Assembly: GCA_020849295.1 (NCBI GenBank)
Contig: JADLGN010000037.1
Location: 1-64,000 of the forward strand
Length of the DNA: 64,000 bases
Source of the DNA: Bacteroidia bacterium
GTDB lineage: Bacteria; Bacteroidota; Bacteroidia; NS11-12g; UBA9320
Reading direction: 5' to 3'
The notes beneath the pieces were generated by a model, which saw only the letters and a list, made by a program, of their open reading frames with translations, did not search any database and was not told the DNA's origin. Each line of letters opens with the position of its first letter. Positions within the stretch are counted from its first letter, which is position 1. The position numbers and the translations under genes are program-made. This document shows, piece by piece, positions 1-64,000 of the stretch.

Positions 1-3000
1 GCATCTTAGGGTTACTTTCATAAAAATTTTGTAACCAAATTAATTGAGAAGAATCCAATAAAGGCAATGGCATACTATCCAATTTCCATGCTTTTATTTG
101 GTTATAAAGATTGTTATAGGTGGTGTGATAGTCTGCTTCTTGGTCTGTCAAGTCTATTTGGGCAGGGATGCTGTCTAATACATTTTGATAATCGGTGTAT
201 AGACCTTGTTCAAAATACAAACCCGCTAATTGATAACGGTACATTGGGTTAGTGGGATGGGTAAGCAAGGTGTCGAGTGTGGCTAGATGATTAAGGGTAT
301 CGTCTAAATACCATCCTACCAAATCGTTAAGAAGTAAATCGTAATTGGTATTAGCCTCAGCCACTTGCCAAGCTAAGGTATCTCGGTCAGTTAAGCTATC
401 AGCATTGGCCACTATATCGGCAATATAAAAAGGCGACATAGCGGTGCTGCGATTTAGCAAGATGCTTTTTATCCAACCCGAGCGGCCGGCTTGGGGATTG
501 GCTTTAAGCACATTGCGTATTTGCAAGTCAGAAAATGCACCTTCCTTAGCTGCCAATGTGGCTAGGGCATCCATACTTAACCATGGCGAGTAACCTATGA
601 GTTGATTATACACAAAGGTGGCATTTCCGGTGGTAGCTGTTTCTATATCATTTACCACATTGGTGGGGCTATTGCCATTATCAATAACGGCTTTCCAAGA
701 GGTGTTTACCGATGACATAGCTGATTTATAAACCGATAAATCACTGCGCTTTGTTGTTGGCCACCCTGTTCCACTTTTTGTTAATTTGTCAGGGCATAAT
801 GCACCTGTTTGATTTGTATTTATTAAAGAAATATTATTGACTAGCGATGGTTTAGTTCGAGTATTAACTGAGCTATTATTTTCATCCTGATGAAAATAAG
901 TCATTTTATTGGCCTCATTATCTATATTAAGATAAAGCACAGGACTGCTATTGCCAAATAAATTATCTGCAGGTAGGGTTAATGAACCTTGATTATTAGC
1001 CATTCCCGTTAAAGAGGTAAAGTCAATATCAGGCTCTTTTAGCACCTGTAAATCTTTCATATCATCGGTATAATCATTGCACCGAAAGGTTAAACCTATT
1101 TTATCATTACCAGCATCTTTATTTTCATTCAATACTTCCGAAGCCACGGTTAAGTCTTCAAACACGCTCCTGTAAAATTCAGTAGCATTTGCTCCGGCAT
1201 CCCTTACAACTAAGCCACCGTGTCCGCCTGTTATCCAAGAAGATGTTTTTGTTCCTGTATACATGTTATGCTCCACATCAAAGGCCGTGGTAGCATCCAT
1301 GTACAGACCATAAGGGTAGGTCGTTGAGTTATACTCAAACAAATCATCTTTAATAGTAAACTGATTGTTTATTACCCTTGCATTCGTATTTTTAAGCATA
1401 TAAAAACCTTTATAGCAAGTGGTAGAACAGCCATCAATACTTGTTCGGCTGCCGCCCGGCAATGAGATGGATTGTACAGCCTGTTTTAGCTTAATAAATT
1501 TTGTGGTTGTAACGGTAATACCACTTGTAAAATTTGTTAAGTTAAATGAGGCTTCTTTAGCGTTAATACCTAAGCGTCCGTTCACTTTAGGGCTTACACC
1601 AGTCCTTTGATCTTCAAATTTGCAGCCTTGCATGTTTATATTATTGCACCATGTTAGATTGACATGTTCACCCAAATTTGCAATTTTATTATCATTCGTG
1701 GTATAAAAATTACACTTTTTAAAATAACTAATATTTGCTTTTGGTTCATGCAGAATAGACGTTGTTTTACCCCATATTACCACATCGGTGGTATTATTTC
1801 TAAAGGTAGTATTCTCGGCTTTAATAATTCCTTTGGTTGTTTTAGGATTAATAGTCCCATTGCTATACCATCCTATGGCTCTAACCCCATTGATAGCATT
1901 TTCAATTATAGACCCATTTTTCAATTCCACCACTCCTTGGTAAGCAGGAGTTTGAATTTTGCTTGAATCTCCCAAAACTACTATTCCTCCCCAAGGCCCA
2001 TCCCCACAAAGGTTGGTAAGAATTGCTCCATCAACTATAAGTTTAGCTCCGGGCTTTACTATAATTTTTCTATTAGGTGAAATAAGAATATTGTGAGTTA
2101 TCGTTAAGGTACAGCCCGATTCTAGGGTAACATCACTTGCTACATGTCGCAATTCGTTCCAAGTATGTGAGCCATATTTGCTGCCACTCTCGCCTTTAGC
2201 AAGAAAAACGGCATTATAAGCATTTACTCGTCCTGCTCCTAAGTGATTGGAGGGGATGGTGATACTGATATTTGATGAATCTAAAGAATAATCTTCAATC
2301 GCAGAATAATTCATTGGGTCGCACCCTGCCTTGAGTAAGCATTCTATTCCTGCCGGACTTAGATAGGGATTTGCTGAAAACATTAAACCGACAATTCCCG
2401 CTACCAATGCACTTGATGATGATGTACCTCCAAACCCAGTTAAACCCTCATCTTGCTGGCGATTTATCGGTGGGCTTCCTGTGGTAATTTGTCCAGGAAA
2501 ATTAGGATTAAATTGTATTTTAGTAGTAACAAAATCATAAGGTGCACAAACATCAATGTAGGTATCATGATTAAAATTTTTGCCGATTTTATCTACTGTA
2601 TCTGAAGCTGCTACGACAATTGCCCCTTCCAGTAGAATAAATTGATTAGACGGCAAGTTATATCTGTAATTATTTGGATCAGGATTTCCACCAGCCATTG
2701 TAAAAACCACCCCTCTTTTAATTCCTTCAACTACCTCGTCACCCAATAAAAATCCTGCTCTGTTTTTTGAACTTACTGGCCCGATAGCAGGACCCCAACT
2801 GCAATTTATAACTTTCACATTATCCTCAATTGCAATCATTACAGCTTCATCTAAATCCGTCCATCCAGAAATAGAGGTATCAGGGTTTGTTTTACCAAAG
2901 CCCAAAAAAGAATACCCTGCTAATTTGCAATTTCCTCCTATACCTGAAATTCCTGTACTATTATTAAAAGAAGAGGCTGCCGCACCAGCGCACATCATAC

Positions 3001-3715
3001 CGTGATAAAAAGTTCTCTTTGTATCTTTGGTATACCAATTTAAAGGCCAATTTTTTATATCTCCAGTTATATTAAATTCAGGAAGATTTAAAGTATCATT
3101 TGCTCCAAAATTCCAATGTTTCCATATTTTAAATTTTCCTCGCATATCATAATGAAAAGTATCCATATAGCTATCTACTATTCCTATCAATACATTGGTA
3201 TCACCTTTAGTAACATCCCATGCACATTCTGCCTCAATTTTATTTAGATGCCAACTCCAATCTCGTGGATTCGGATTTGGTGGATCAATCCTGCTTTTCC
3301 AATTTGAACTCCCTAAGGCATCTATAAAATTATCATTAGGATGATACATTGTTGAACACATTGGAACATCCATTCCCATAGGAACAATATCATAAATAAA
3401 TACGTCCTTTATACCTGCCATACTATCAAGTGCTGCCTCCAAAACAAATGCATTACTATCATGAAACATTTTATATTTATACTTAAGTTCACCAACATTA
3501 TCATATTCATTTGAAAATACCTTTTCGAGTTTAGTTACTTTATGTCTACTAAGCCAACCTTGAAATGCAGTATCACCGCTTATTGTTATGCTGTTAGGTG
3601 AACTTGGCCACATAGCCGGATTCATTATCTTTAATCTAATATGCAGTTTTGTTGAATCATAAGAAAATGCATTGCCAACGATAAGTAGAAGCAATAAAGA
3701 GAGTAATTTTTTCAT
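1..3715 (-). CDS. Secreted subtilisin-like (S8) serine protease, C-terminus beyond the window
   Basis: Translating leftwards from the ATG at 3715 gives an unbroken frame to the left edge, so at least 1238 residues are encoded and the C-terminus is missing. A lipid-free signal peptide (MKKLLSLLLLLIVGNAFS) comes first. The S8 triad is visible as Asp181 (GIVDS), His238 (YHGMM) and Ser432 (GGTSSSSALVAG). After the protease domain a region of about 400 residues looks like a right-handed parallel beta-helix (repeats such as 'TLTITHN..IISPNRKIIV' and 'NTTFRNNTT'), then an unrecognised region follows. A T9SS sorting domain would be expected at the missing end, but that is inference. The last 270 residues are encoded by visibly more GC-rich DNA than most of the window. 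Confidence 0.9.
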   Translation of the reverse strand, partial: MKKLLSLLLLLIVGNAFSYDSTKLHIRLKIMNPAMWPSSPNSITISGDTAFQGWLSRHKVTKLEKVFSNEYDNVGELKYKYKMFHDSNAFVLEAALDSMAGIKDVFIYDIVPMGMDVPMCSTMYHPNDNFIDALGSSNWKSRIDPPNPNPRDWSWHLNKIEAECAWDVTKGDTNVLIGIVDSYMDTFHYDMRGKFKIWKHWNFGANDTLNLPEFNITGDIKNWPLNWYTKDTKRTFYHGMMCAGAAASSFNNSTGISGIGGNCKLAGYSFLGFGKTNPDTSISGWTDLDEAVMIAIEDNVKVINCSWGPAIGPVSSKNRAGFLLGDEVVEGIKRGVVFTMAGGNPDPNNYRYNLPSNQFILLEGAIVVAASDTVDKIGKNFNHDTYIDVCAPYDFVTTKIQFNPNFPGQITTGSPPINRQQDEGLTGFGGTSSSSALVAGIVGLMFSANPYLSPAGIECLLKAGCDPMNYSAIEDYSLDSSNISITIPSNHLGAGRVNAYNAVFLAKGESGSKYGSHTWNELRHVASDVTLESGCTLTITHNILISPNRKIIVKPGAKLIVDGAILTNLCGDGPWGGIVVLGDSSKIQTPAYQGVVELKNGSIIENAINGVRAIGWYSNGTINPKTTKGIIKAENTTFRNNTTDVVIWGKTTSILHEPKANISYFKKCNFYTTNDNKIANLGEHVNLTWCNNINMQGCKFEDQRTGVSPKVNGRLGINAKEASFNLTNFTSGITVTTTKFIKLKQAVQSISLPGGSRTSIDGCSTTCYKGFYMLKNTNARVINNQFTIKDDLFEYNSTTYPYGLYMDATTAFDVEHNMYTGTKTSSWITGGHGGLVVRDAGANATEFYRSVFEDLTVASEVLNENKDAGNDKIGLTFRCNDYTDDMKDLQVLKEPDIDFTSLTGMANNQGSLTLPADNLFGNSSPVLYLNIDNEANKMTYFHQDENNSSVNTRTKPSLVNNISLINTNQTGALCPDKLTKSGTGWPTTKRSDLSVYKSAMSSVNTSWKAVIDNGNSPTNVVNDIETATTGNATFVYNQLIGYSPWLSMDALATLAAKEGAFSDLQIRNVLKANPQAGRSGWIKSILLNRSTAMSPFYIADIVANADSLTDRDTLAWQVAEANTNYDLLLNDLVGWYLDDTLNHLATLDTLLTHPTNPMYRYQLAGLYFEQGLYTDYQNVLDSIPAQIDLTDQEADYHTTYNNLYNQIKAWKLDSMPLPLLDSSQLIWLQNFYESNPKM

Positions 3716-3738
3716 GGAATATTATAAATTAATTACAA

Positions 3739-3768
3739 CAAATATAATTTGACTTATTAAAGAATAAA
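3739..3768 (-). promoter_or_regulatory. Candidate Bacteroidota promoter for the S8 protease
   Basis: On the minus strand a TATATTTG box (3746-3739) matches TAnnTTTG exactly, with TTTA (3768-3765) 18 bases upstream in place of the usual TTTG. Transcription would start near 3732, about 15 bases before the protease ATG. One of the two boxes is imperfect. Confidence 0.45.
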
Positions 3769-3916
3769 ATGTTTTTCATTATTAAAATATTTAAAAAAAA
3801 GAATAAATATGTTCATGAATTTATATAAGTAAACCTTGTTATGTTTAAATAAAAAAACTGGGAATATTCACTTTTCAAATTTTTATATTAAAATAAAATA
3901 ATAAAATTTGCAGTAA

Positions 3917-4939
3917 ATGATAATAAAAAGCAGGGCTCCATTAAGAATTGGTTTAGCAGGTGGAGGAACAGATGTTAGTCCGTATTCTGATATTTACGGT
4001 GGCTCGGTATTAAATGCAACAATTAACAAATATGCTTACGCAACAATTGAACCTTTGAGCGGCAATGAAATAATATTAAATTCTATTGATAAAAAAATCT
4101 GTTTAACATATACTACTAACGATTCTTTGCCAATAGATGGCAAACTAGATTTACTAAAAGGAGTATATAACAGAATTATTAAAGAATTTAAGAAAGAACC
4201 AAAGTCGTTCAAATTAACAACTTTTGTAGATGCACCGGCTGGAAGCGGTCTTGGTAGCAGTTCCACACTTGTAGTAGCTATAATTGGTGCTTTTGCCGAA
4301 TGGCTATATTTACCACTCGGCGAATATGATATTGCACATTTAGCTTATGAAATTGAAAGAATAGAACTTGGTATGCACGGAGGGAAACAAGACCAATATG
4401 CAGCTACTTTTGGAGGGTTTAATTTTATGGAATTTTATAAAGACGATAAAGTAATAGTAAACCCACTAAGAATTAAACCAAAATACATTGCAGAATTGCA
4501 AAACAATCTGGTTTTATTTTATACTGGTACAAGCCGCGATTCAGGAACAATTATTAAACAACAGTCAAATAATGTGGTAACAAATGATGTAACAGCTATA
4601 AATGCTACTCATATACTTAAAGAGCAATCTGTAAAAATGAAAGAAGCACTATTAACCGGTAATCTTGAACAAATCGGGCAAATATTAAATTTAAGCTGGG
4701 AGCATAAAAAACTTATGGCAAAAGGTATTAGCAATCCTGCAATTGAAAAATTATATACAACTGCAATTAATGCCGGTAGCAACGGAGGAAAAATATCCGG
4801 TGCCGGTGGCGGTGGGTATATTTTCTTTTATTGCCCCGGTAATGCCAGATATATTGTAATTGAAGCAATGAAAAAATTAGATTTAATAGCCGAAAATTAC
4901 GAATTTACTTCCAACGGCTTATATACTTACACTATATGA
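3917..4939 (+). CDS. hddA: D-glycero-alpha-D-manno-heptose 7-phosphate kinase (GHMP kinase)
   Basis: 340 residues, the usual length for HddA. The enzyme phosphorylates C1 of D-glycero-alpha-D-manno-heptose 7-phosphate, a step towards the GDP-heptose used in S-layer, capsule or LPS glycans. The N-terminus (RAPLRIGLAGGGTD) is diagnostic of HddA-type GHMP kinases, the ATP-binding loop PAGSGLGSSS lies at residues 107-116, and the C-terminal GHMP motif reads KISGAGGGGY. The stop codon overlaps the start of hddC by four bases (ATGA), so the genes are translationally coupled. The sedoheptulose-7-phosphate isomerase GmhA is not in this window. Confidence 0.93.
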   Translation: MIIKSRAPLRIGLAGGGTDVSPYSDIYGGSVLNATINKYAYATIEPLSGNEIILNSIDKKICLTYTTNDSLPIDGKLDLLKGVYNRIIKEFKKEPKSFKLTTFVDAPAGSGLGSSSTLVVAIIGAFAEWLYLPLGEYDIAHLAYEIERIELGMHGGKQDQYAATFGGFNFMEFYKDDKVIVNPLRIKPKYIAELQNNLVLFYTGTSRDSGTIIKQQSNNVVTNDVTAINATHILKEQSVKMKEALLTGNLEQIGQILNLSWEHKKLMAKGISNPAIEKLYTTAINAGSNGGKISGAGGGGYIFFYCPGNARYIVIEAMKKLDLIAENYEFTSNGLYTYTI

Positions 4940-6232: not shown

Positions 6233-9200
6233 TTGATATATAATTTGACCAAGAGATTAATAATATCAATAATTTTCGTATTTCTATTTTTGCAATTACG
6301 AGCTACACACCTTATTGGTGGCTCTATGAGCTATCAATATCTTGGTCAAAATAGTTCAGGAAATTTTAATTACAAAATTACTCTTGATATTTTCAGAGAT
6401 TGTCTTGCAGGCCAAGTAGGATTTGAAAACGAAATTGAAATAGGTGTTTATCATATTAATGCACAGCGTTCAAAACACAAAACAGTAAAGATTAAACTTA
6501 TATCAAAAAAAAATGTACTACCACCGGGATATACCAATTGTTCATTTAAACCTGATGTATGTATTGAAGAGGGATTTTATGAAGGGGTAATTGAATTAGG
6601 TGCAAGCACTTTAGGATATGAATTGCTATTTGAAAGATGTTGCCGAAATGTACAAAACAACATAGAGTCAGGCTCAAGCCAGCCAAATCAAGGTCAAACA
6701 TATTATTGCAAAATTCCTCCAACATCAGTTGTAAATAGTTCGCCGGTTTTTTCGGGAATACCATCACCGTACATGTGTATTAACGATACTATTTCTTTTT
6801 TAAATACTGCTGTTGATATTGACGGAGATTCTCTGGTTTATTACTTTGTAAAACCATGGGGCGGCGGTGATATTAATAATGCAGGCTTACCTCCTCCCCC
6901 AAATTTTCCTGCAATCAAACAAATTATTTATAAATCAGGGTATAATCAATTAATGCCATTTGGCACTACAGGTTATATAAATATTGACAAATTCAATGGA
7001 TTAACAAGCTATTTGACCAAACAAACAGGAAACTACATAGTGGCAATAGAAGTGGCTGAGTATCGCAATGGAGTTTTGCTTAGTACTGTTAGGCTTGATT
7101 TACAAATAATTTTTATCAATTGCCCCCCAAACAGACGACCAACAATATCAAGCGACAAAGGATTATCATACACAATAGAAGCAGGCAGTAAACTTTGTTT
7201 TAATGTAATAGCCTCTGATGCTGATAATAACAATCTTCAACTAACCCCCAAAGGTAATATTTTTACAGGCAAAGGAGGATGGAAAGGACCAATTGCAACA
7301 CTTTCGGCAAAAACAGGTAAAGGGTTAATAATGTCAGAATTTTGTTGGCAAACTTCATGTGAGCAGGCAAGCAAAAAACCTTATCTTTTTGCAGTACAAG
7401 TAGAAGACGATGGTTGTCCGGCAAAATACAATACAGTAAATTTTAAAATTACAGTAAATCCTTTTGTAAGCGATGCTGTTATAAATGGGAAAACACCAGT
7501 TTGCCAAAACGAAATTGCAAAATACAAAGTATCAAATGTCAAAATTGGCTCTATGTTCGAATGGGATATCGCAAACGGTATAATTTTAAGTGGAAATAGT
7601 ACTTCAGAAATAACAGTAAAATGGACAGGCAACACATCAGGCTCTATTAAATTCAGAGAAATCAGTAAATATAATTGTTTTGGCGATTGGAAATCATTTG
7701 CAGTAAATATTACCCCAAGCCCAGTTGTACCTCAAATAAGCGGGAAAGATACAGTGTGCTTGAGCGGTGGAATTGAAAATTATAATATATCAAACAATAC
7801 CACCGGCATTTCATATACTTGGTGGATTAATATAGGCAATATTTCTGCAAATAATAATAATAATATTTCAATAGATTGGAATGTAAAGGGTGACCAAAAA
7901 ATAAAGGTTATAGCTACAAATATTCAAGGATGCAAAAGTGATACAGCCTTAATGAAAATCAATGTAAGAAAACCATCTCCTATAATAATTGGAGCAAAGA
8001 CAATATGTCCAAACAGTAAAAATATTCTTTATAGTTGCATTGGCAACAATGGTTCTGTTTTCAATTGGACTGTAAACGGCGGAAATATTGTTTTGGGAAA
8101 CAATACTGATAAAATTTATATAAACTGGGGAGATGCTCAACTTGCAAAAATTACTTTAATAGAAACTGATAAATTTGGTTGCAAAAGCAACCCAGTAACT
8201 TTTGATGTTAATGTAACTTATACTCTTGATAGCGATATACCTTTTGGTGACAATTCGGTTTGCGAATACTCTAAAAATGTACCTTATTTTTTAATCCACT
8301 CAAACGGTGTAAAATATAACTGGAATATAAACGGAGGTACACTTACAGGCAAAATAGATTCGAATTTTGTATTGGCAAATTGGGGAGCGGCAGGTAATGG
8401 AAATCTTACAGTATTAAAACAAGCCTATGATTCAGTTAATAAAAAAAATTGCACAAGTTTACCTGCAATTATTGATGTAATAATAAACAAACAACCGATT
8501 GCAAATAAAATAGAAGGCTACTTTGAAATGTGTCAAAATAATGATTCAATTAATTACACAATAAATGGTTTTGCAGGTAGTATATACTTTTGGAATATTA
8601 ACGGCAATTCAAATATTTCAGGTCAAGGCACAAATACAGTAAAATTTCTACCGAATACTCCAGGTATGCATAATATAAACGTAATAGAATTGACTAAAGA
8701 CAGTTGTTTAGGGAATATTGTTGATTCAGTTATTATAGTTCATCCAAAACCAACAGCGGATTCTATTTTTGGAAAATTAACAGTTTGCGAACCTAATTAT
8801 TCTAATTACACATACAAACTTTCAGGGATTAATAATTCACAATATTATTGGAGTACAAATAACGGCAGTATAATAAGCGGAAATAATACAAATGAAATAA
8901 TTGTAAACTGGAGTAATGAAGATCCTCTTTGGATAAAAGTGGTTGAAATATCAGAATTTGGCTGCATAGGTGATACTATTTTTAAAAATATTATTACTGA
9001 CAAATTAAATCTTGAACTTCAGGTAATATCTGTTGGCTATCCTGATGACCGTATGGAAATAAAATGGAATAATAATAACTCTAAAAAATACAGTCGTGAT
9101 TATATCATAGAGAGAAGAAATGCAGGTGAAATTATTTGGCAAAATGCAGGTACTATAAAAGACTTTACAAATTACTTTGAACAACCTTTAAATACTGATA

Positions 9201-37254: not shown

Positions 37255-38163
37255 CTAAAAGCCTCTAAAAACTATACCTACACATGCTGTATTTACATTC
37301 GGACCTTTGTCTTTTTTAAAAGTTGACTCTGGAAAATATCTGAAATAAAAGTTTATATCATTAGAACCTAAATATAATGAATACCCTATTCTTAGTTCGT
37401 CAATGTTATAATCTCCCTTTACTTTTGTTTTTTGTTTTCCATTGCTTTCCCATTTTCTTTTTTGATAGCTGTTTAATAAATAACCTATTTGTGGTCCAAA
37501 AGCTATTTTAAATGAATCATTTTTCTTCGACTTACCAAATTTCATTTTTATCAAAATCGGTACTGTAAGATAATTAGAAACTAGCTTATTTTTCTTGTAA
37601 TCTATATTTGTATTTAGTGTGTATTTTAGTATTGAAGAATCTTTTAGTAAATCAACATTATTTTTAAATCTGTAATTGTTCCAATCAACACCTACACCAT
37701 ATACTAATGACATATTGTTTTTCACAAGGCTTACCTCTTGTTCGAAAATACGTAAGTTAAATTCGCATCCTTTGCCATTATCAAGATCAAGTTCTTTGTA
37801 ATTTTCAGGCATGTCAAGTGTTTTATTGTATTCAAGAAAATTTAAACCCCAATCAAATGCAAACCAGTGTGATTTTACTTTAGGTTCATTTTTGCTTTCC
37901 TTTTTATGTTTTTTTTCCACTTTTTTCTTGTTTGATTCTTTGTTCTTTTCAGGAACATGGCCTATTTTTAGCGTATCATCTTTTATTATAATTTCTGTGT
38001 TTTTGTTTTTGTCATGGGTCTCTTTGGTATCAATGGTTATTTTAATTTTTTTTCCATTGATGATTACAGGTTTATTTGCCTTTGATGAGTCTGATTGGGC
38101 ATTAGCAATGATTACTGCTAATAATAATGAAATAAATGTTGTTTTTAATTTTAATGATTTCAT
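37255..38163 (-). CDS. Outer-membrane beta-barrel protein (PorT-like) of an ECF sigma operon
   Basis: 302 residues. A signal peptide ends at ANAQS. Residues 25-100 are a soluble, Lys/Glu-rich linker (KKKVEKKHKKESKNE). From about 100 on, alternating beta strands typical of an 8-stranded barrel run to a C-terminal aromatic (GIVFRGF), including NYLTVPILIKMKFG, AFGPQIGYLLNS and INFYFRYFPE. It lies 7 bases after the anti-sigma gene, third in sigma / anti-sigma / barrel order. A counterpart fused to its anti-sigma occurs at 62241-63587. Confidence 0.75.
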   Translation of the reverse strand: MKSLKLKTTFISLLLAVIIANAQSDSSKANKPVIINGKKIKITIDTKETHDKNKNTEIIIKDDTLKIGHVPEKNKESNKKKVEKKHKKESKNEPKVKSHWFAFDWGLNFLEYNKTLDMPENYKELDLDNGKGCEFNLRIFEQEVSLVKNNMSLVYGVGVDWNNYRFKNNVDLLKDSSILKYTLNTNIDYKKNKLVSNYLTVPILIKMKFGKSKKNDSFKIAFGPQIGYLLNSYQKRKWESNGKQKTKVKGDYNIDELRIGYSLYLGSNDINFYFRYFPESTFKKDKGPNVNTACVGIVFRGF

Positions 38164-38170
38164 ATCTTTT

Positions 38171-38959
38171 TTATTTTAATTCTATTAATGCATTTGCATA
38201 AATTGTTTCTCCTTTAATAGTAATATCAACTGCCGGGCGATGATTTTTGATTTTTGGGTTTAGACTTATTTTTACATTCGGCAAGTCTTTCAATAATTTA
38301 TTAAATTTAAAGGTATTTGCCAGAATATATTCTCTAACTTTTTTTGTTTTAATAGGATATTTCTCTATTGATAAATTTTTTAATTCTTTAACACTTTCTT
38401 CTTTTGTTGTATTATAACCGATTTTTTCGGCAGTTAAAGATTTTATGATTATTTCATCAAATATTTTTATAGTTTGTGATAATGTGTCAACTTTAGCAGT
38501 TTGCTCTATTGTTTTTATTTCAGTTTTAAGTTGATTACTTGGCTTTGATACAAGTATTTCTTTATTCTCGATTTTAGTTTGCTTTGTTCTCTGTTTTACT
38601 ATTCCATTTCTATTCAATTCAATATTTTCACTTTTTATATTTGCAAACATGTTTTTATCTGTTCTTTCAATCTTCATTAGAAACATTGAAATTAAAATTA
38701 ATGTAGCTGCTATACTTACTGAAATATAAATTTTAAATTGTTTTGATAAACCAATCGGTTTTATCAATGCTTCTTTTCCAGAGTAAGTTTCATTTAAATC
38801 TGGTATTAATATAGTTTGTTGAAACAGATTCCACTCATGCTTATAAAATTCGTCATCATTTATTTGTTCTATTAAATTACTTTTTAAAGGTTCTTTTATA
38901 TTTCCTTCAAGTAAATCAAACATTATTATTTCATAATTTTCTTTGTTTATCACAATCAT
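38171..38959 (-). CDS. Probable membrane-bound anti-sigma factor
   Basis: 262 residues. The cytoplasmic N-terminus (NYEIIMFDLLEGNI ... EWNLFQQTILIPDL) has the pattern of Bacteroidota anti-sigma domains, followed by one membrane span at about 76-95 (FKIYISVSIAATLILISMFL) and a periplasmic part of about 165 residues. Its start overlaps the stop of the ECF sigma gene by 4 bases, and the barrel gene follows directly. Identification rests on position and topology as much as on sequence. Confidence 0.72.
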   Translation of the reverse strand: MIVINKENYEIIMFDLLEGNIKEPLKSNLIEQINDDEFYKHEWNLFQQTILIPDLNETYSGKEALIKPIGLSKQFKIYISVSIAATLILISMFLMKIERTDKNMFANIKSENIELNRNGIVKQRTKQTKIENKEILVSKPSNQLKTEIKTIEQTAKVDTLSQTIKIFDEIIIKSLTAEKIGYNTTKEESVKELKNLSIEKYPIKTKKVREYILANTFKFNKLLKDLPNVKISLNPKIKNHRPAVDITIKGETIYANALIELK

Positions 38960-39444
38960 AACAATATATCAATTTTCCCGATTTTTTCTTTTATAATTTG
39001 TCTTGCTCTAAAAATATTAATTTTTACTTGCGATTCTGATAAACCTGTAATTTCACTTATTGTTTTATAATCGTACCCTTCGTAATCTCTTAGCAAAATA
39101 ACACTTTTATATACTTCGGGCAGTTTACCAACAATTCTATCAACTGTTGCTTTAATTCCAGTAAATTCAGTATTATTATCTTTAATATTATTGAGTTTTT
39201 TTTCGTCTATATAAGAATGTCGTTTTGATGCTCTGATAACATCAATCATGTTTCTGTATGCAACTGTAAAAATATAACTTTTTGCTTTTTCAATATCAAC
39301 AGTATTGCGTTTTATCCAAAGTTTTTCAAAAGTATTTTGAGTAATGTTTTGTGCTTCGTCTTTATTTTTAATACTTTTCATTATAAATCTATACACTCCG
39401 TCAGCATATTGTTTTACACAATCATTATATTGCGATGGGGTCAT
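38956..39444 (-). CDS. ECF RNA polymerase sigma factor
   Basis: 162 residues. Region 2 (YADGVYRFIMKSIKNKDEAQNITQNTFEKLW ... YRNMIDVIR) and region 4 (LPEVYKSVILLRDYEGYDYKTISE followed by GLSESQVKINIFRARQ) are both complete. The target promoter cannot be read from here. First of three coupled genes: sigma, anti-sigma, outer-membrane barrel. Confidence 0.92.
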   Translation of the reverse strand: MTPSQYNDCVKQYADGVYRFIMKSIKNKDEAQNITQNTFEKLWIKRNTVDIEKAKSYIFTVAYRNMIDVIRASKRHSYIDEKKLNNIKDNNTEFTGIKATVDRIVGKLPEVYKSVILLRDYEGYDYKTISEITGLSESQVKINIFRARQIIKEKIGKIDILL

Positions 39445-58786: not shown

Positions 58787-60694
58787 TTGAAAATTTATAA
58801 ACTTACTATAATATGTTTTTTACTGGCTTCAAAAGGCTATTCTTCAGTTTTTCATGATTCATCTTTTTCAAAACCTAAAAAAAGACCACTTTTTATTTAC
58901 ACAAAAGATATTGAAAATTTCAGGCAAACTGCAAACACTTTTGATACAACTTTACACAACTTTCAATTTATAAATCCAATAAGAAAAAGAAATTTATCAT
59001 TTCAAAATTTGGGATTACCAGGTACGCCTCAAAAAAACTATTTTATTGATAAACTCAAAGACCCCGGATTTGATTTAGGTTTTAATAATATGGATATATG
59101 GCTTATAAACTGCAATGAAGAAAATGACAAAATTGTTTATTCGCCTACTCCTTATTCTTCGTTAAATTATTCACAAGGAGAAAAAGACTTAATTTTTATT
59201 GAAGCTTCACATACCCAAAATATTAATAGTAGAATAAATGCAGGTATTGACTATCGAAGAATTAAAACAAATAATTATTTATACTTTAATTTCGACAATC
59301 AGGAATATAACAGAGTAAGAATACCTAATATTTACAATCTTAAACTATATTCGAGTTATCATGCAAAAAATGATAAAATTTACATTATAGGAAATATTAT
59401 TTTTAATAAATCTACTCTGCGTGAAAGTGGCGGGCTGAAGTATCCTGAGATGTTTGATACAACTTCGGGCAAACTTAGAGCATTTGAAAATAACCTTAGA
59501 AATGCTAACAATTCAATAAAGCAATATGCCACAAATATCAAAACGTATTACAGATTTGGAAATACTAAATTTATAATTAATCAGAAAAATTCAAGTTTGA
59601 AAGACACCACGGGACTAATGTTTATACCCAAAAGCTATTTGTTTCATAATATTTATATTTCGCATTCACGCTATTATTATACAGACCCAAATGCTGACAC
59701 CCCTTATTACTCAGTTAGCTATTTTGGCAAAGGAGTATCAGATTCAATAGTGTTCAAAGAAATAAGCAATTCACTTGGTTTGGCTTTTAAAAGCAAAAAT
59801 CTTATATTAAAAACCAATGTTGTTCTGAGCAATTATGGAGTTTATAATAAATTTTACGGACAACAAGTTTTTCAAAATATAGCTGTAAAATGCGATTTAT
59901 CATTTGCAAAAGATAATAAAAACTTAAATTTTTATTATGGTATTAACACACATTATTTTTTAAATGGAAATAATAAAAATGACTATTTGATTAAAGCCTT
60001 TATTGACATAAGTAAACAACGGTATTTCGGTGCAATTGCTGAAGTTTTCAGTCAACAAAATTCACCTGATTATGTTCAAAATTTATATTTTAGTAATCAT
60101 GCCATTTGGAATCAAAAACTTGACAAAACCCTTAGAAACGGGTTTAACTTAAATATTAAAATAAATAAACTGAACACTACAATTGATTTTTCAGTATGCA
60201 ACTTTAATAATTATATTTTATATTATAAAAATACGTCTCCTTCAAGTATTGATTTTACTTATATAAGTGCTGACATTGAAAACAAACTAAAGTTAAAAAA
60301 AATCAAATTTGAAAATAGAATAGTTTTTCAAAAAACAAGCAAAACATATAATGTCCCCTTATTAATTTTAAACGGACAACTATTTTATGAAAATTTTCTT
60401 TTCAAAAAAAATATGTTTGCAAGAATAGGAATTGATTACAATTGGAATTCTAAATTTTTTGCAGATTATTATATTCCGTATTTAAGACAATATGTGTGGC
60501 AAAATGAAATTAAGACTGGTAACTATCCTTATGTGGGTTTATTTTTTAGTGCCAGTGTACAAACTGTAAATTTCTTTTTCAAATTTGAGCATATCAATCA
60601 GGGGATTGTTGGATCAAATTATTACAATACATATTTGTATCCCGAAGTGCCAAGATTTTTTAGAATGGGCATAAAATGGAGATTGTTTTACTGA
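58787..60694 (+). CDS. Putative Bacteroidota porin (Porin_10-like)
   Basis: 635 residues. The start is a TTG: the nearby ATG at 58779 stops after three codons. Signal peptide (LTIICFLLASKGYSS). The protein is rich in alternating Tyr/Asn/Phe beta strands across its whole length and ends in an aromatic residue (KWRLFY). N-terminal landmarks typical of this family are QNLGLPGTPQKNYF and LGFNNMDIW. Probably a large outer-membrane channel; substrate unknown. It converges with and overlaps the uspA-type gene by 7 bases. Confidence 0.8.
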   Translation: MKIYKLTIICFLLASKGYSSVFHDSSFSKPKKRPLFIYTKDIENFRQTANTFDTTLHNFQFINPIRKRNLSFQNLGLPGTPQKNYFIDKLKDPGFDLGFNNMDIWLINCNEENDKIVYSPTPYSSLNYSQGEKDLIFIEASHTQNINSRINAGIDYRRIKTNNYLYFNFDNQEYNRVRIPNIYNLKLYSSYHAKNDKIYIIGNIIFNKSTLRESGGLKYPEMFDTTSGKLRAFENNLRNANNSIKQYATNIKTYYRFGNTKFIINQKNSSLKDTTGLMFIPKSYLFHNIYISHSRYYYTDPNADTPYYSVSYFGKGVSDSIVFKEISNSLGLAFKSKNLILKTNVVLSNYGVYNKFYGQQVFQNIAVKCDLSFAKDNKNLNFYYGINTHYFLNGNNKNDYLIKAFIDISKQRYFGAIAEVFSQQNSPDYVQNLYFSNHAIWNQKLDKTLRNGFNLNIKINKLNTTIDFSVCNFNNYILYYKNTSPSSIDFTYISADIENKLKLKKIKFENRIVFQKTSKTYNVPLLILNGQLFYENFLFKKNMFARIGIDYNWNSKFFADYYIPYLRQYVWQNEIKTGNYPYVGLFFSASVQTVNFFFKFEHINQGIVGSNYYNTYLYPEVPRFFRMGIKWRLFY

Positions 60695-61494
60695 TAATGA
60701 ACCACCATAATAGGTAGTAGCTGGTGTTGAAGTATTTCAGAAAAAATATTTCGATGAAACAATTGTTCAACTAATCCATAATTTCTTTTAATAATTATCA
60801 AAAGTTCAATATCGTGGTTTTTGCAATACTTTGTTACTCCTTTTTCTACTGACTCTGACTCTATAATTTCAATTTCAATTTTTTTTCCGTCATCCAATGA
60901 AAAACTAATAGGCTCTTGTTTTGATTTACCGTTATTCACATAAAACCAATTAACTTTAGCATCAAAATTATTAGCAAAATCAACAATTTTTCTTACTACA
61001 CTATGTAGTTCGTTAAATTTATATTTTATATCAACCGGTACAGCAATTTTTTTAATTGGTTCAAAGTTTTGGTCACCTTCAACAATAATAACAGGACATG
61101 GAGAATGTTTTGAAACACTTTCTGCTACACTGCCAAACAAAAACCTGTCAGCTCCAGTGGCACCTCTGGTTCCCATAACAACAAAAGTAAACTTATGAGA
61201 TTCGAGATATTCTTTAACGGTAATTGATGGAATACCAAACGAAAAATGAGTTGAGATTTTTAAATTATTGTACTTGTTTTTAATTTCATCATGTATTACT
61301 TTAAGCCGTTCTCTTGATGTTTGCTCAATGCTTTTTATTAGTTCTACAGCCATACTTGCATCATCATTTGCCGGCAAGCTTTGAATATTGAGCAGAAATA
61401 TTTCGCTATCTGTTTTTAATGCAATCTGACATGCGTAATTCAAAGCATTTTCAGAAACTTTTGAAAAATCAGTTGGAACTAAAATTTTTTTCAT
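60688..61494 (-). CDS. Universal stress protein with two UspA domains
   Basis: 268 residues. Domain 1 (1-145) starts MKKILVPTDFSKVSENALNYA and has the ATP-binding G-x2-G-x9-G-S motif (GTRGATGADRFLFGS). Domain 2 (150-268) keeps the fold (KKIAVPVDIKY ... LLIIIKRNYGLVEQLFHRN) but lacks that motif, so it probably does not bind ATP. Such proteins respond to starvation or redox stress. Confidence 0.9.
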   Translation of the reverse strand: MKKILVPTDFSKVSENALNYACQIALKTDSEIFLLNIQSLPANDDASMAVELIKSIEQTSRERLKVIHDEIKNKYNNLKISTHFSFGIPSITVKEYLESHKFTFVVMGTRGATGADRFLFGSVAESVSKHSPCPVIIVEGDQNFEPIKKIAVPVDIKYKFNELHSVVRKIVDFANNFDAKVNWFYVNNGKSKQEPISFSLDDGKKIEIEIIESESVEKGVTKYCKNHDIELLIIIKRNYGLVEQLFHRNIFSEILQHQLLPIMVVHYQ

Positions 61495-61657
61495 AAATAA
61501 TATATAATTTTTATTACAAATGTCTTATTAGTATTGAACTTATCAAATCTTTTTTTTATACAAAAAAAAAAGATATTTGCACTTTACACATATTCTTTAA
61601 AATAAAACAAATCGAGCAAATTTTAAAATAATTAAAAATTGATGCAACATATTTAGA

Positions 61658-62257
61658 TTGATAAAAGTCTTGAAACTGAACAATCCAATAAATAAAAATG
61701 AACAATTAAAATTGATGAGTGATGAAGAACTTATTAAAGGATGTATTAAAGGTAAAGAAAACTATCAATATGAAACTTATAAAAGGTTTGCACCAAAGAT
61801 GTTCGGAGTTTGTCTTAGATACTGTGCAAACAGAGATGAGGCACAAGACGTACTTCAAGATGGATTCATTAAGGTTTTTAATAAAATTGACACATTCAAG
61901 TTTACAGGTTCATTTGAAGGTTGGATACGAAAAATTATGATAAATACAGCATTAAGAAATAAATATATACATTTCAGGACTCACGAGTTGAACAATTTAG
62001 AATTTGTAGAACACCCGTCAGTAGATGAAAAAATAACTTCAGACTTGTCGTATTCATATCTGATGAAACTTGTAGATGAATTACCACAAGGTTATAAAAT
62101 AGTGTTTAATATGTTTGCCATCGAAGGCTATTCACATAGAGAAATAAGTGAAATGCTGAATATTCAGGAAGCTACTTCGAGGTCACAATATTTAAGAGCG
62201 AGAAAAATGTTAAGAGATAAATTAGAAAAGATAAAAAGAAATGAGTTTAAAAGTTAA
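61658..62257 (+). CDS. ECF RNA polymerase sigma factor
   Basis: 199 residues from a TTG at 61658; TTG 61670 or the ATG at 61715 (MSDEELIKGC) may be the true start. Region 2: KRFAPKMFGVCLRYCANRDEAQDVLQDGFIKVF. Region 4: LPQGYKIVFNMFAIEGYSHREISEMLNIQEATSRSQ. It belongs to the Bacteroidota ECF group whose partner gene is usually adjacent. It overlaps the next gene by 17 bases. Confidence 0.92.
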   Translation: MIKVLKLNNPINKNEQLKLMSDEELIKGCIKGKENYQYETYKRFAPKMFGVCLRYCANRDEAQDVLQDGFIKVFNKIDTFKFTGSFEGWIRKIMINTALRNKYIHFRTHELNNLEFVEHPSVDEKITSDLSYSYLMKLVDELPQGYKIVFNMFAIEGYSHREISEMLNIQEATSRSQYLRARKMLRDKLEKIKRNEFKS

Positions 62258-63587
62258 TAAAGATATAGAAAAAATACTTGCAGAAGGTGCTCAAAATTTT
62301 GAGGAAATACCTTCAGAGCAGGTTTGGTTGAATATAAAGAAAGGCAAAAACAGTAAGTTTATTTTTCTTTTTAATTATCACAAATGGCGTATTGCTTCTA
62401 CAATTGCCTTGCTTGCAATAGTAAGTATAGTAGTTTATTATTTTTTAAATACCAAAGACCAACAATCTGTAGTAAAAGAAAATTCAATTGAAAATAAATC
62501 ATTTATTCCTCTACAAAAAAATTCAATACCAGAAAACGAAGATTTAATAATTGATAATAAAAATACCGGTATTGAAAATGCAGAAGAAAATATTTCAAAC
62601 AATTCTAATAATAATAATAAATCTGGCAAACAATCAGAAAAAATATTAAAGAAAAATATTGCCAAATCAACTGAAAGAAATGACAAAGAAATTATTTCTG
62701 GAAATGAAAATTATAATTCTGATTTCAAAATAGAAATTATTGAAATTCATTCAAAATTAAACCCCACAATTAAATATATTGACAATATTGTATTTGAGAA
62801 ATATACCCCTGTATCTAAGAAGTTTAAAAAGAATTATATAAAAAACAAAGAAAAGGAGCAGCAAAAATACAAAAACTCAAAAGGTACTTATTCATTAGAA
62901 ATAGGAGGCGGACCTTCATATCTTTACAGAAAATTATCAGGCGGAAATTATCTATTAAGAAATGAATCTGAAAAACCATTGATATCATTCCAAACCAATT
63001 TTAAAGTTAATTATCATATAAATAATAGCTTTTCAATACAATCAGGTTTAATAGTAGAAACAAGAAATGAAAAACTTAACTACAATCATGCAGAATTAAG
63101 AAAAAAACTTACTCAAACTCCTAAAATTGTAACTGTATATCATCCTATTTTACCACCTAAAAATATTACAGTAATAGATAGTACTTATACTAATGAAACA
63201 GTAAAATACGATTTTGAAAACATAAACAAATACACTTCGTTTAATATTCCATTAATTTTGGGTTACAATTTTGGTAACAGTAAACAACAATATAGAATTT
63301 CAGCAGGTACATTAGTAAATATTTTTTCATCTAATAATGCAAAAATTATTGAAAAATCAGGACACGAAACAGTGTTGACATCATACAAAGAGCCACATAA
63401 AATTAACCCTTCAATATATTCTGCAGTAGCATACAGCAAGATTATAAATAATCATTATAGTTTAGTTTTTGAATTATCATACTATAAAAATTTATTTAAT
63501 AGATTTGATAGCGAATCAATAACTAAACAAATTAATTCTGGTATTAATTTTACTTCAGCAATTAAATACAATATTATTAAAAAATGA
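62241..63587 (+). CDS. Anti-sigma factor fused to an outer-membrane beta-barrel
   Basis: 448 residues. Residues 1-49 are cytoplasmic (KDIEKILAEGAQNFEEIPSEQVW), like the short Bacteroidota anti-sigma peptides. One inner-membrane span is at about 51-69 (IASTIALLAIVSIVVYYFLN). A polar, Asn/Lys-rich linker runs from 70 to about 213. The remainder is an outer-membrane barrel like PorT (SLEIGGGPSYLYRKL, TSFNIPLILGYNFG, YSLVFELSYYKNLF). No signal peptidase site is evident, so one polypeptide may span both membranes. Co-translated with the ECF sigma gene (17-base overlap). Confidence 0.75.
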   Translation: MSLKVNKDIEKILAEGAQNFEEIPSEQVWLNIKKGKNSKFIFLFNYHKWRIASTIALLAIVSIVVYYFLNTKDQQSVVKENSIENKSFIPLQKNSIPENEDLIIDNKNTGIENAEENISNNSNNNNKSGKQSEKILKKNIAKSTERNDKEIISGNENYNSDFKIEIIEIHSKLNPTIKYIDNIVFEKYTPVSKKFKKNYIKNKEKEQQKYKNSKGTYSLEIGGGPSYLYRKLSGGNYLLRNESEKPLISFQTNFKVNYHINNSFSIQSGLIVETRNEKLNYNHAELRKKLTQTPKIVTVYHPILPPKNITVIDSTYTNETVKYDFENINKYTSFNIPLILGYNFGNSKQQYRISAGTLVNIFSSNNAKIIEKSGHETVLTSYKEPHKINPSIYSAVAYSKIINNHYSLVFELSYYKNLFNRFDSESITKQINSGINFTSAIKYNIIKK

Positions 63588-64000
63588 AAAACCTGTTGCT
63601 CATATTGATTTTATCTTTTAGTTTAGGTAGCATAGCCCAAACAGGAAATTCTATTTTAAAATCAGGTAAAATGAATTTGAGAATAAATGCAGACGGACAA
63701 CTTGCAATTTATAACTCTGAGGCTTCATCAGAATATATTGAAGGAAGCGGAAACCATTTGTTTAGTTTTATCAATATATGGATTTCTGCTTTTGACAATG
63801 CAGACAACTTATATATATCAACAGTAAATACATATAGCGGAAAAAACGATTACAGCCCTGGTCCTATTGACAGCCTTACATACGTTGGTGCAGAACCAGA
63901 CACATTCAATAAAATTTGGCAAATTAGTTCGAGCAACATTTATGAACATATAAAAAATTATAAAAACATCGGTTATAATCCAATTGATGCTATTAAAACA
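63584..64000 (+). CDS. Secreted protein, C-terminus beyond the window
   Basis: ATG at 63584 overlaps the preceding stop (ATGA); the frame is open to the right edge for 139 codons. Signal peptide (LLLILILSFSLGSIAQ). The opening motifs IWISAFDNADNLYIS, then SGKNDYSPGPIDSL and FNKIWQISSSNI, resemble the N-termini of large Bacteroidota secreted proteins that end in a T9SS sorting domain; that end is not visible here. It may be the third gene of the sigma operon. Confidence 0.7.
   Translation, partial: MKNLLLILILSFSLGSIAQTGNSILKSGKMNLRINADGQLAIYNSEASSEYIEGSGNHLFSFINIWISAFDNADNLYISTVNTYSGKNDYSPGPIDSLTYVGAEPDTFNKIWQISSSNIYEHIKNYKNIGYNPIDAIKT

Follow-up and report, generated by a model that had tools for sequence, protein, structure and literature searches.

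The window, that is, the whole 64,000-nucleotide stretch of Bacteroidia bacterium DNA that was analyzed, contains a single open reading frame (ORF) of 448 codons in which an anti-sigma-like segment appeared to be joined to an outer membrane barrel. This raises the question of whether one polypeptide reaches from the cytoplasm across both membranes and, if so, which genes it would control. The ORF begins within the gene for an ECF sigma factor, overlapping the 3' end of the sigma ORF by 17 nt (Table 1). Its product gave no Pfam match at cut-off and none in NCBIfam or PHROGs, and a search of plasmid sequences found no match to it. In the genome-mode search, the outer membrane barrel family PF13568 scored 24.1 bits, just under the cut-off of 27.

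Table 1. Coordinates of the features discussed, with the evidence for each
Feature	Coordinates	Strand	Evidence
Barrel protein with signal peptide, separate gene	37255..38163	-	PF13568, 37.5 bits
Single-span anti-sigma candidate	38171..38959	-	Homologues in 22/39 relatives; no Pfam match
ECF sigma factor, split locus	38956..39444	-	Pfam Sigma70 r2/r4; NCBIfam sigma_PG0214, 111.9 bits, under cut-off of 130
ECF-type promoter GCAAC-N17-AGTCTT, probably autoregulatory	61644..61671	+	Same elements and spacing in six congeners; genome scan
ECF sigma factor, likely true CDS, 180 aa	61715..62257	+	Sigma70_r2, r4_2; ORF opens at TTG 61658
Putative Dma-type trans-envelope anti-sigma factor, 448 aa	62241..63587	+	Single uninterrupted ORF; homologues, topology, model
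N-terminal cytoplasmic anti-sigma-like domain, residues 1-50	62241..62390	+	Two helical segments; conservation; hhalign to Bacteroidales Dma set
Inner membrane span, residues 51-69	62391..62447	+	Kyte-Doolittle 2.38; basic N side; model helix 26-69 unbroken
Disordered periplasmic linker, residues 70-213, including short helix 198-211 ahead of the barrel	62448..62879	+	Low pLDDT; low identity
8-stranded outer membrane barrel, residues 214-448	62880..63584	+	pLDDT ~95; OmpA Z 18.2; Bacteroidales Dma barrels by hhalign, 99.6%
T9SS type A cargo protein, 501 aa, 5' part	63584..64000	+	TIGR04183, 27.5 bits, cut-off 23; gene runs to contig position 65089

The architecture was examined first by structure prediction. 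An AlphaFold2 model built with 55 homologues (mean pLDDT, 77), with which a first model from 21 sequences was concordant, contained a helix at residues 4 to 18 and a long helix at residues 26 to 69 that includes the membrane span. Model confidence was moderate in the N-terminal domain (pLDDT of ~60 to 83) and mostly <50 across residues 73 to 183 of the linker, while residues 216 to 446 formed the eight strands of the barrel at a pLDDT of ~95. The membrane domain of OmpA matched the modeled barrel with a Z score of 18.2 and a root mean square deviation of 2.7 Å over 172 residues. The turns between strands 2 and 3, 4 and 5, and 6 and 7, on the periplasmic side, were short and the remaining loops, on the outside, were long, a pattern that fits an outer membrane protein with a periplasmic N terminus.

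Hydropathy analysis placed the span at residues 51 to 69, with a net charge of +3 in the flank on its N side. Across 62 fused homologues (window protein included, and one of them, L055, an orphan without the N-terminal domain), the span started at a median residue of 49.5, and the N side was the more basic in 57. Linker length, estimated by counting the final 235 residues of each homologue as barrel, had a minimum of ~106 residues and a median of 165, compared with ~144 here. Within the genus, identity was 40 to 62% in the N-terminal domain, 17 to 36% in the linker, and 47 to 74% in the barrel; conservation of the N-terminal domain next to a variable linker is what a functional domain in the cytoplasm followed by a spacer would show and does not fit a signal peptide. 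Hence, the order of parts given in the original prediction, with an anti-sigma-like segment, a span at residues 51 to 69, a linker of about 144 residues, and a barrel in one chain, was recovered by the model and hydropathy and agrees with the conservation. A trans-envelope fusion of anti-sigma factor and barrel is well supported.

The fusion is not peculiar to this genome. Among 58 close genomes, 20 had a match, giving 21 loci, and all 21 encode a single fused ORF; such retention of the arrangement goes beyond chance. The original prediction had also paired the protein with the second ECF sigma factor, and the gene order agrees with this pairing, the sigma gene adjoining here and lying directly upstream at 20 of the 21 loci, the remaining one of which sits at a contig end. 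In a sample of the phylum, the profile matched in 120 of 392 genomes, a count that mixes fused proteins, short proteins, and some weak or spurious matches. The best-scoring loci (L024 to L052) comprised 27 fused and 2 short forms, with an ECF sigma gene adjacent in all. The weak profile matches L108 and L109 were not counted; they resemble unrelated proteins that begin with a DNA-binding-like segment. One fused protein of 562 residues (L026, positions 1489 to 3177) gave profile matches suggesting three tandem N-terminal domains, the first at 1.2e-4 and the second weak. The organism's own genome encodes three further matching proteins, two with a sigma gene and one orphan. A paralogue on contig C9 of that genome (L078, positions 3424 to 4662) has the span, linker, and barrel and lacks both the N-terminal anti-sigma domain and a sigma neighbor, making it a candidate orphan two-membrane protein.

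In FecA-FecR-FecI signaling, the components are separate proteins, and the receptor is TonB dependent and 22 stranded, with a plug and a signaling domain. The window system resembles it in combining an outer membrane barrel, an inner membrane anti-sigma factor, and an ECF sigma factor but differs in that one chain with an 8-stranded OmpA-type barrel takes the place of a separate anti-sigma factor and 22-stranded receptor. The TonB, STN, and FecR Pfam domains were absent from the window protein and its 20 aligned relatives, and assignment to FecR/FecA-type signaling was rejected on this ground and on the type of barrel.

Closer relatives were sought in Bacteroidales-like genomes, which were picked by a 16S probe that we take to be specific for Bacteroidales and whose loci were then read. 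These loci encode fused proteins with sigma factors, some of them near small ...SCLGD lipoproteins resembling NigD by eye. A single-protein scan of named genomes gave three loci, and one of the Bacteroidales loci belongs to Bacteroides pyogenes according to its public record. The barrel of the window family aligned with that of the Bacteroidales set at an hhalign probability of 99.6% (E = 7.3e-24). The N-terminal domain aligned with the set including B. pyogenes at 97.9% (E = 3.8e-13) when compared alone; in the full-length profile comparison, only the barrels aligned. Between the window sigma factor and those encoded beside the Bacteroidales proteins, E values ranged from 1e-30 to 6e-56. Two loci (L129, positions 151 to 1854, and L132, positions 1489 to 3132) encode an ECF sigma domain, span, linker, and barrel in one ORF with no separate anti-sigma domain, which is the layout of Dma3.

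The Dma proteins of Bacteroides thetaiotaomicron are anti-sigma factors with domains reaching all the way from outer membrane to cytosol, encoded beside ECF21 sigma factors (PMC13088901), and in Dma3 the sigma factor is the N-terminal domain of the same chain (PMC13088901). The family includes the pairs Dma1-Das1 and Dma2-Das2 of that species (PMC13088901 and, as cited there, PNAS 10.1073/pnas.2321910121). A sigma factor and a barrel-bearing anti-sigma factor from P. vulgatus were reported in 2022 (PMC9308784), and when such anti-sigma factors are lost in B. thetaiotaomicron or P. vulgatus, the cognate sigma factor exerts its effects unchecked (PMC13088901, PMC9308784). The architecture itself is thus not new, having been published between 2022 and 2026 for the Dma family and the P. 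vulgatus pair. On the strength of N-terminal domain and barrel homology to Bacteroidales proteins of the same layout, the window protein was filed as a putative Dma-type member, a comparison made through the Bacteroidales set with B. pyogenes standing in for B. thetaiotaomicron Dma1, Dma2, and Dma3.

The original prediction had taken a second locus in the window, at 37255 to 39444, to hold the same three functions as separate genes and had read the fused protein as a Rosetta-stone link between them. The layout stood, in that the locus encodes a sigma factor, a single-span protein, and a barrel with a signal peptide, but the homology to the fused parts did not. In profile comparisons, the alignment between the single-span protein and the fused N-terminal domain was confined to the membrane segments (58%), and the two barrels aligned at only 3.9%. 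As no match was found for either anti-sigma domain or barrel, the Rosetta-stone link was not sustained; as far as profiles can see, the two loci appear alike in layout and not in descent.

The survey of homologues showed that both fused and split forms of the N-terminal domain exist and that the true split relatives lie elsewhere than at 37255 to 39444. The split set consisted of 20 regions selected because a short ORF matched the N-terminal domain, together with L044 and L048; for the profile comparison, 20 loci were used, L061 and L071 being left out. The split loci encode a sigma factor, a short anti-sigma candidate, and then, nearly always, a signal-peptide gene. Their N-terminal domains matched that of the fused family (hhalign, 98.8%; E = 1.2e-16), whereas their barrels did not (1.2%). 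The third-gene barrels instead matched the barrel at 37255 to 38163 (hhalign, 100%; E = 5.9e-40). Five of the third proteins were scanned for PF13568: three were above cut-off, L060 was below it, and L044 gave no match. The broader claim that anti-sigma factor and barrel work together therefore drew support from a different source than the one proposed, namely, the presence of the same N-terminal domain in short anti-sigma candidates nearly all beside a signal-peptide gene, and not from homology at 37255 to 39444.

To define what the sigma factor might transcribe, its upstream region was compared among congeners. The ORF at 61658 to 62257 contains Sigma70_r2 (48.8 bits) and r4_2 (50.4 bits) by Pfam. 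The elements GCARC-N17-AGTCTT were found upstream of the sigma gene in all six congeners (window genome included), with diverged spacers between them. As the TTG start lies inside this conserved promoter, the sigma factor most likely starts at ATG 61715, with a predicted length of 180 residues. A spaced-dyad search run without guidance on the regions ahead of 28 sigma genes did not clearly exceed shuffles (top 10 versus 6 to 9), so that support for the promoter comes from the six-congener alignment and a genome scan. A universal stress protein gene at 60688 to 61494 lies divergently upstream of the sigma gene and keeps this position in the congeners.

The exact GCAAC/AGTCTT scan of seven genomes returned 15 sites, versus 4 for the reversed pattern. 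Five of the 15 were the operon's own, and five others (L165, L168, L169, L171, and L172) precede a second giant protein, ending ~20 nt upstream of the gene start in five of the seven congeners. This protein belongs to the same family as the giant protein of the operon, with 53 to 57% identity where compared. The pattern was derived from the operon sites, and therefore only the second-giant set is independent, with orthologous descent among close species also contributing to it. The predicted regulon of the window sigma factor would thus consist of the operon and the second giant. A promoter-like site was also seen ~20 nt ahead of a gene for a different exported protein in another genome (L174, positions 1501 to 1528, contig C35 of G003), a possible further target.

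The genes downstream encode proteins with type IX secretion system (T9SS) domains. The start codon of the type A cargo gene overlaps the stop codon of the dma gene (ATGA), and the gene order in six congeners, counting the window genome, is sigma, Dma, a protein of ~500 residues, and a giant protein. Across the window family and the order, two own-genome paralogue loci included, 20 of the 21 proteins encoded beside Dma had a T9SS type A domain at E values up to 0.01. The CHU_C type IX domain was present in all 14 giants scanned, which include the second giant protein of both G004 and G006, and 12 of the 14 also had PKD. In the organism's own genome, with 115 type A matches, all three sigma-Dma pairs have a type A neighbor; the rough probability of this by chance is ~1e-4, assuming independence, ~5% of genes, and no selection of loci. 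A T9SS neighbor was not seen at the six more distant Dma loci examined. By gene order and domain content, the predicted operon of sigma, Dma, T9SS type A, and giant T9SS type B protein is conserved across the order. Both own-genome giants (L176, positions 358 to 1788, and L022, positions 7117 to 8532) are truncated by contig ends at one segment that they share, probably because the assembly broke at a repeat.

This context separates the window system from its published counterparts. Dma1-Das1 and Dma2-Das2 share with it an anti-sigma domain, one span, a periplasmic linker, and a barrel in one chain, with the ECF sigma gene adjacent, but their targets are different genes (nigD1 in the case of Dma1), whereas the window operon encodes T9SS type A and type B cargo. 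Similarly, the P. vulgatus pair M0N98_03760/03761 and the similar B. fragilis EcfO pair combine an ECF sigma factor with a large anti-sigma factor that is predicted to span the periplasm and to end in a barrel, but the P. vulgatus regulon includes an LPS-glycan glycosyltransferase and nigD genes (PMC9308784), whereas the predicted targets here are T9SS surface proteins. What is new with respect to the published family is a conserved operon and an ECF-like promoter, which point to secreted surface proteins as probable targets.

Architecture, fold, family homology, and operon and promoter conservation have computational support, and from them we infer sigma binding, the signal, cleavage, and the regulon, with capture and release of the sigma factor modeled on the Dma family. 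The N-terminal ~50 residues would bind the co-encoded ECF sigma factor in the cytoplasm, residues 51 to 69 would cross the inner membrane, a disordered linker of ~140 residues would cross the periplasm, and the C-terminal barrel would be embedded in the outer membrane, exposing its loops on the outside of the cell. The trigger may be disturbance of the barrel or the outer membrane, or binding of something by the barrel. Release would most likely proceed via cleavage of the exposed linker, a plausible protease substrate, followed by intramembrane cleavage by RseP, which is encoded in the genome (262 bits). The freed sigma factor would transcribe its own operon from the promoter at 61644 to 61671, yielding more sigma factor, Dma, T9SS type A protein, and giant type B protein, and would also raise the second giant protein elsewhere in the genome. 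The reading that we hold to be likely is that of a Dma-type anti-sigma factor, attached to both membranes at once, that releases its sigma factor on a barrel or outer membrane signal to drive the T9SS operon.

The chain may be cut when its barrel misfolds on the way through BAM or is disturbed, in which case it would act as a sensor of assembly, and the signal would be outer membrane stress rather than a ligand. The relative in P. vulgatus responds to an envelope-damaging toxin (PMC9308784), and across the phylum, conservation is lower in the surface loops (L2, 0.28; L3, 0.27) than in the strands, but within the genus, the long L2 hairpin (0.79) is conserved similarly to the strands (0.75 to 0.86), which would also suit ligand recognition. 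We regard stress sensing of this kind as a serious possibility, at somewhat less than even chance; since it is compatible with proteolysis and is a variant of the preferred explanation, the confidence placed in the two is not mutually exclusive.

It is less probable, and on balance doubtful, that the chain remains whole across both membranes and that a change in conformation or tension loosens the sigma factor directly. Such uncut signaling accords with a single polypeptide whose linker is always periplasm-long, at least ~106 residues in the 62 homologues. A linker that is predicted to be disordered and is poorly conserved would, however, make a poor rod for a conformational change, and RseP is present. 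In the Dma3-type ORFs, moreover, the sigma factor is covalently joined to the span and would need either cleavage or membrane-bound transcription; these fusions suggest cleavage in that variant. Finally, the original prediction had set against itself a reading in which residues 51 to 69 are a cleaved signal peptide and the mature protein lies only in the outer membrane. This reading, which would leave the first 50 residues without a role, would follow the usual export route of outer membrane proteins behind an N-terminal hydrophobic segment but is highly improbable, given an n-region of ~50 residues that is far too long, is better conserved than the linker, has a basic N side in most homologues, and matches other anti-sigma candidates, and given a sigma gene that always precedes it where the contig allows.

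One further proposal is speculative and rather unlikely: that the Dma barrel reads T9SS cargo on the cell surface, either the co-translated type A protein or the giant type B protein, and that cargo which arrives or fails to arrive would set the transcription of more cargo through a single polypeptide crossing both membranes. In Porphyromonas gingivalis, PorA, a protein with a T9SS-type C-terminal domain (CTD), has been proposed to relay a surface signal to SigP (PMC7712824), and a cargo-sensing role for Dma is for this reason worth testing. The PorA-PorXY-SigP pathway resembles the window system in that a CTD surface protein influences an ECF sigma factor, linking T9SS cargo to a sigma factor, but it runs through a two-component system, and the abstract on it describes no fused barrel anti-sigma factor (PMC7712824).

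Taken on sequence and model, the window protein appears to be a real, well-formed trans-envelope anti-sigma factor of the published kind in a new operon and predicted regulon context. This extends the recently described Dma signaling proteins to another order of Bacteroidota and provides a testable output for them, namely, surface proteins that T9SS would export and whose genes lie under a predicted sigma promoter. By homology, the same anti-sigma domain is joined to a barrel in some proteins and apart from one in others, so that the role of the physical link can be tested. If the link to cargo is true, surface secretion would be tied to transcription without a two-component system.
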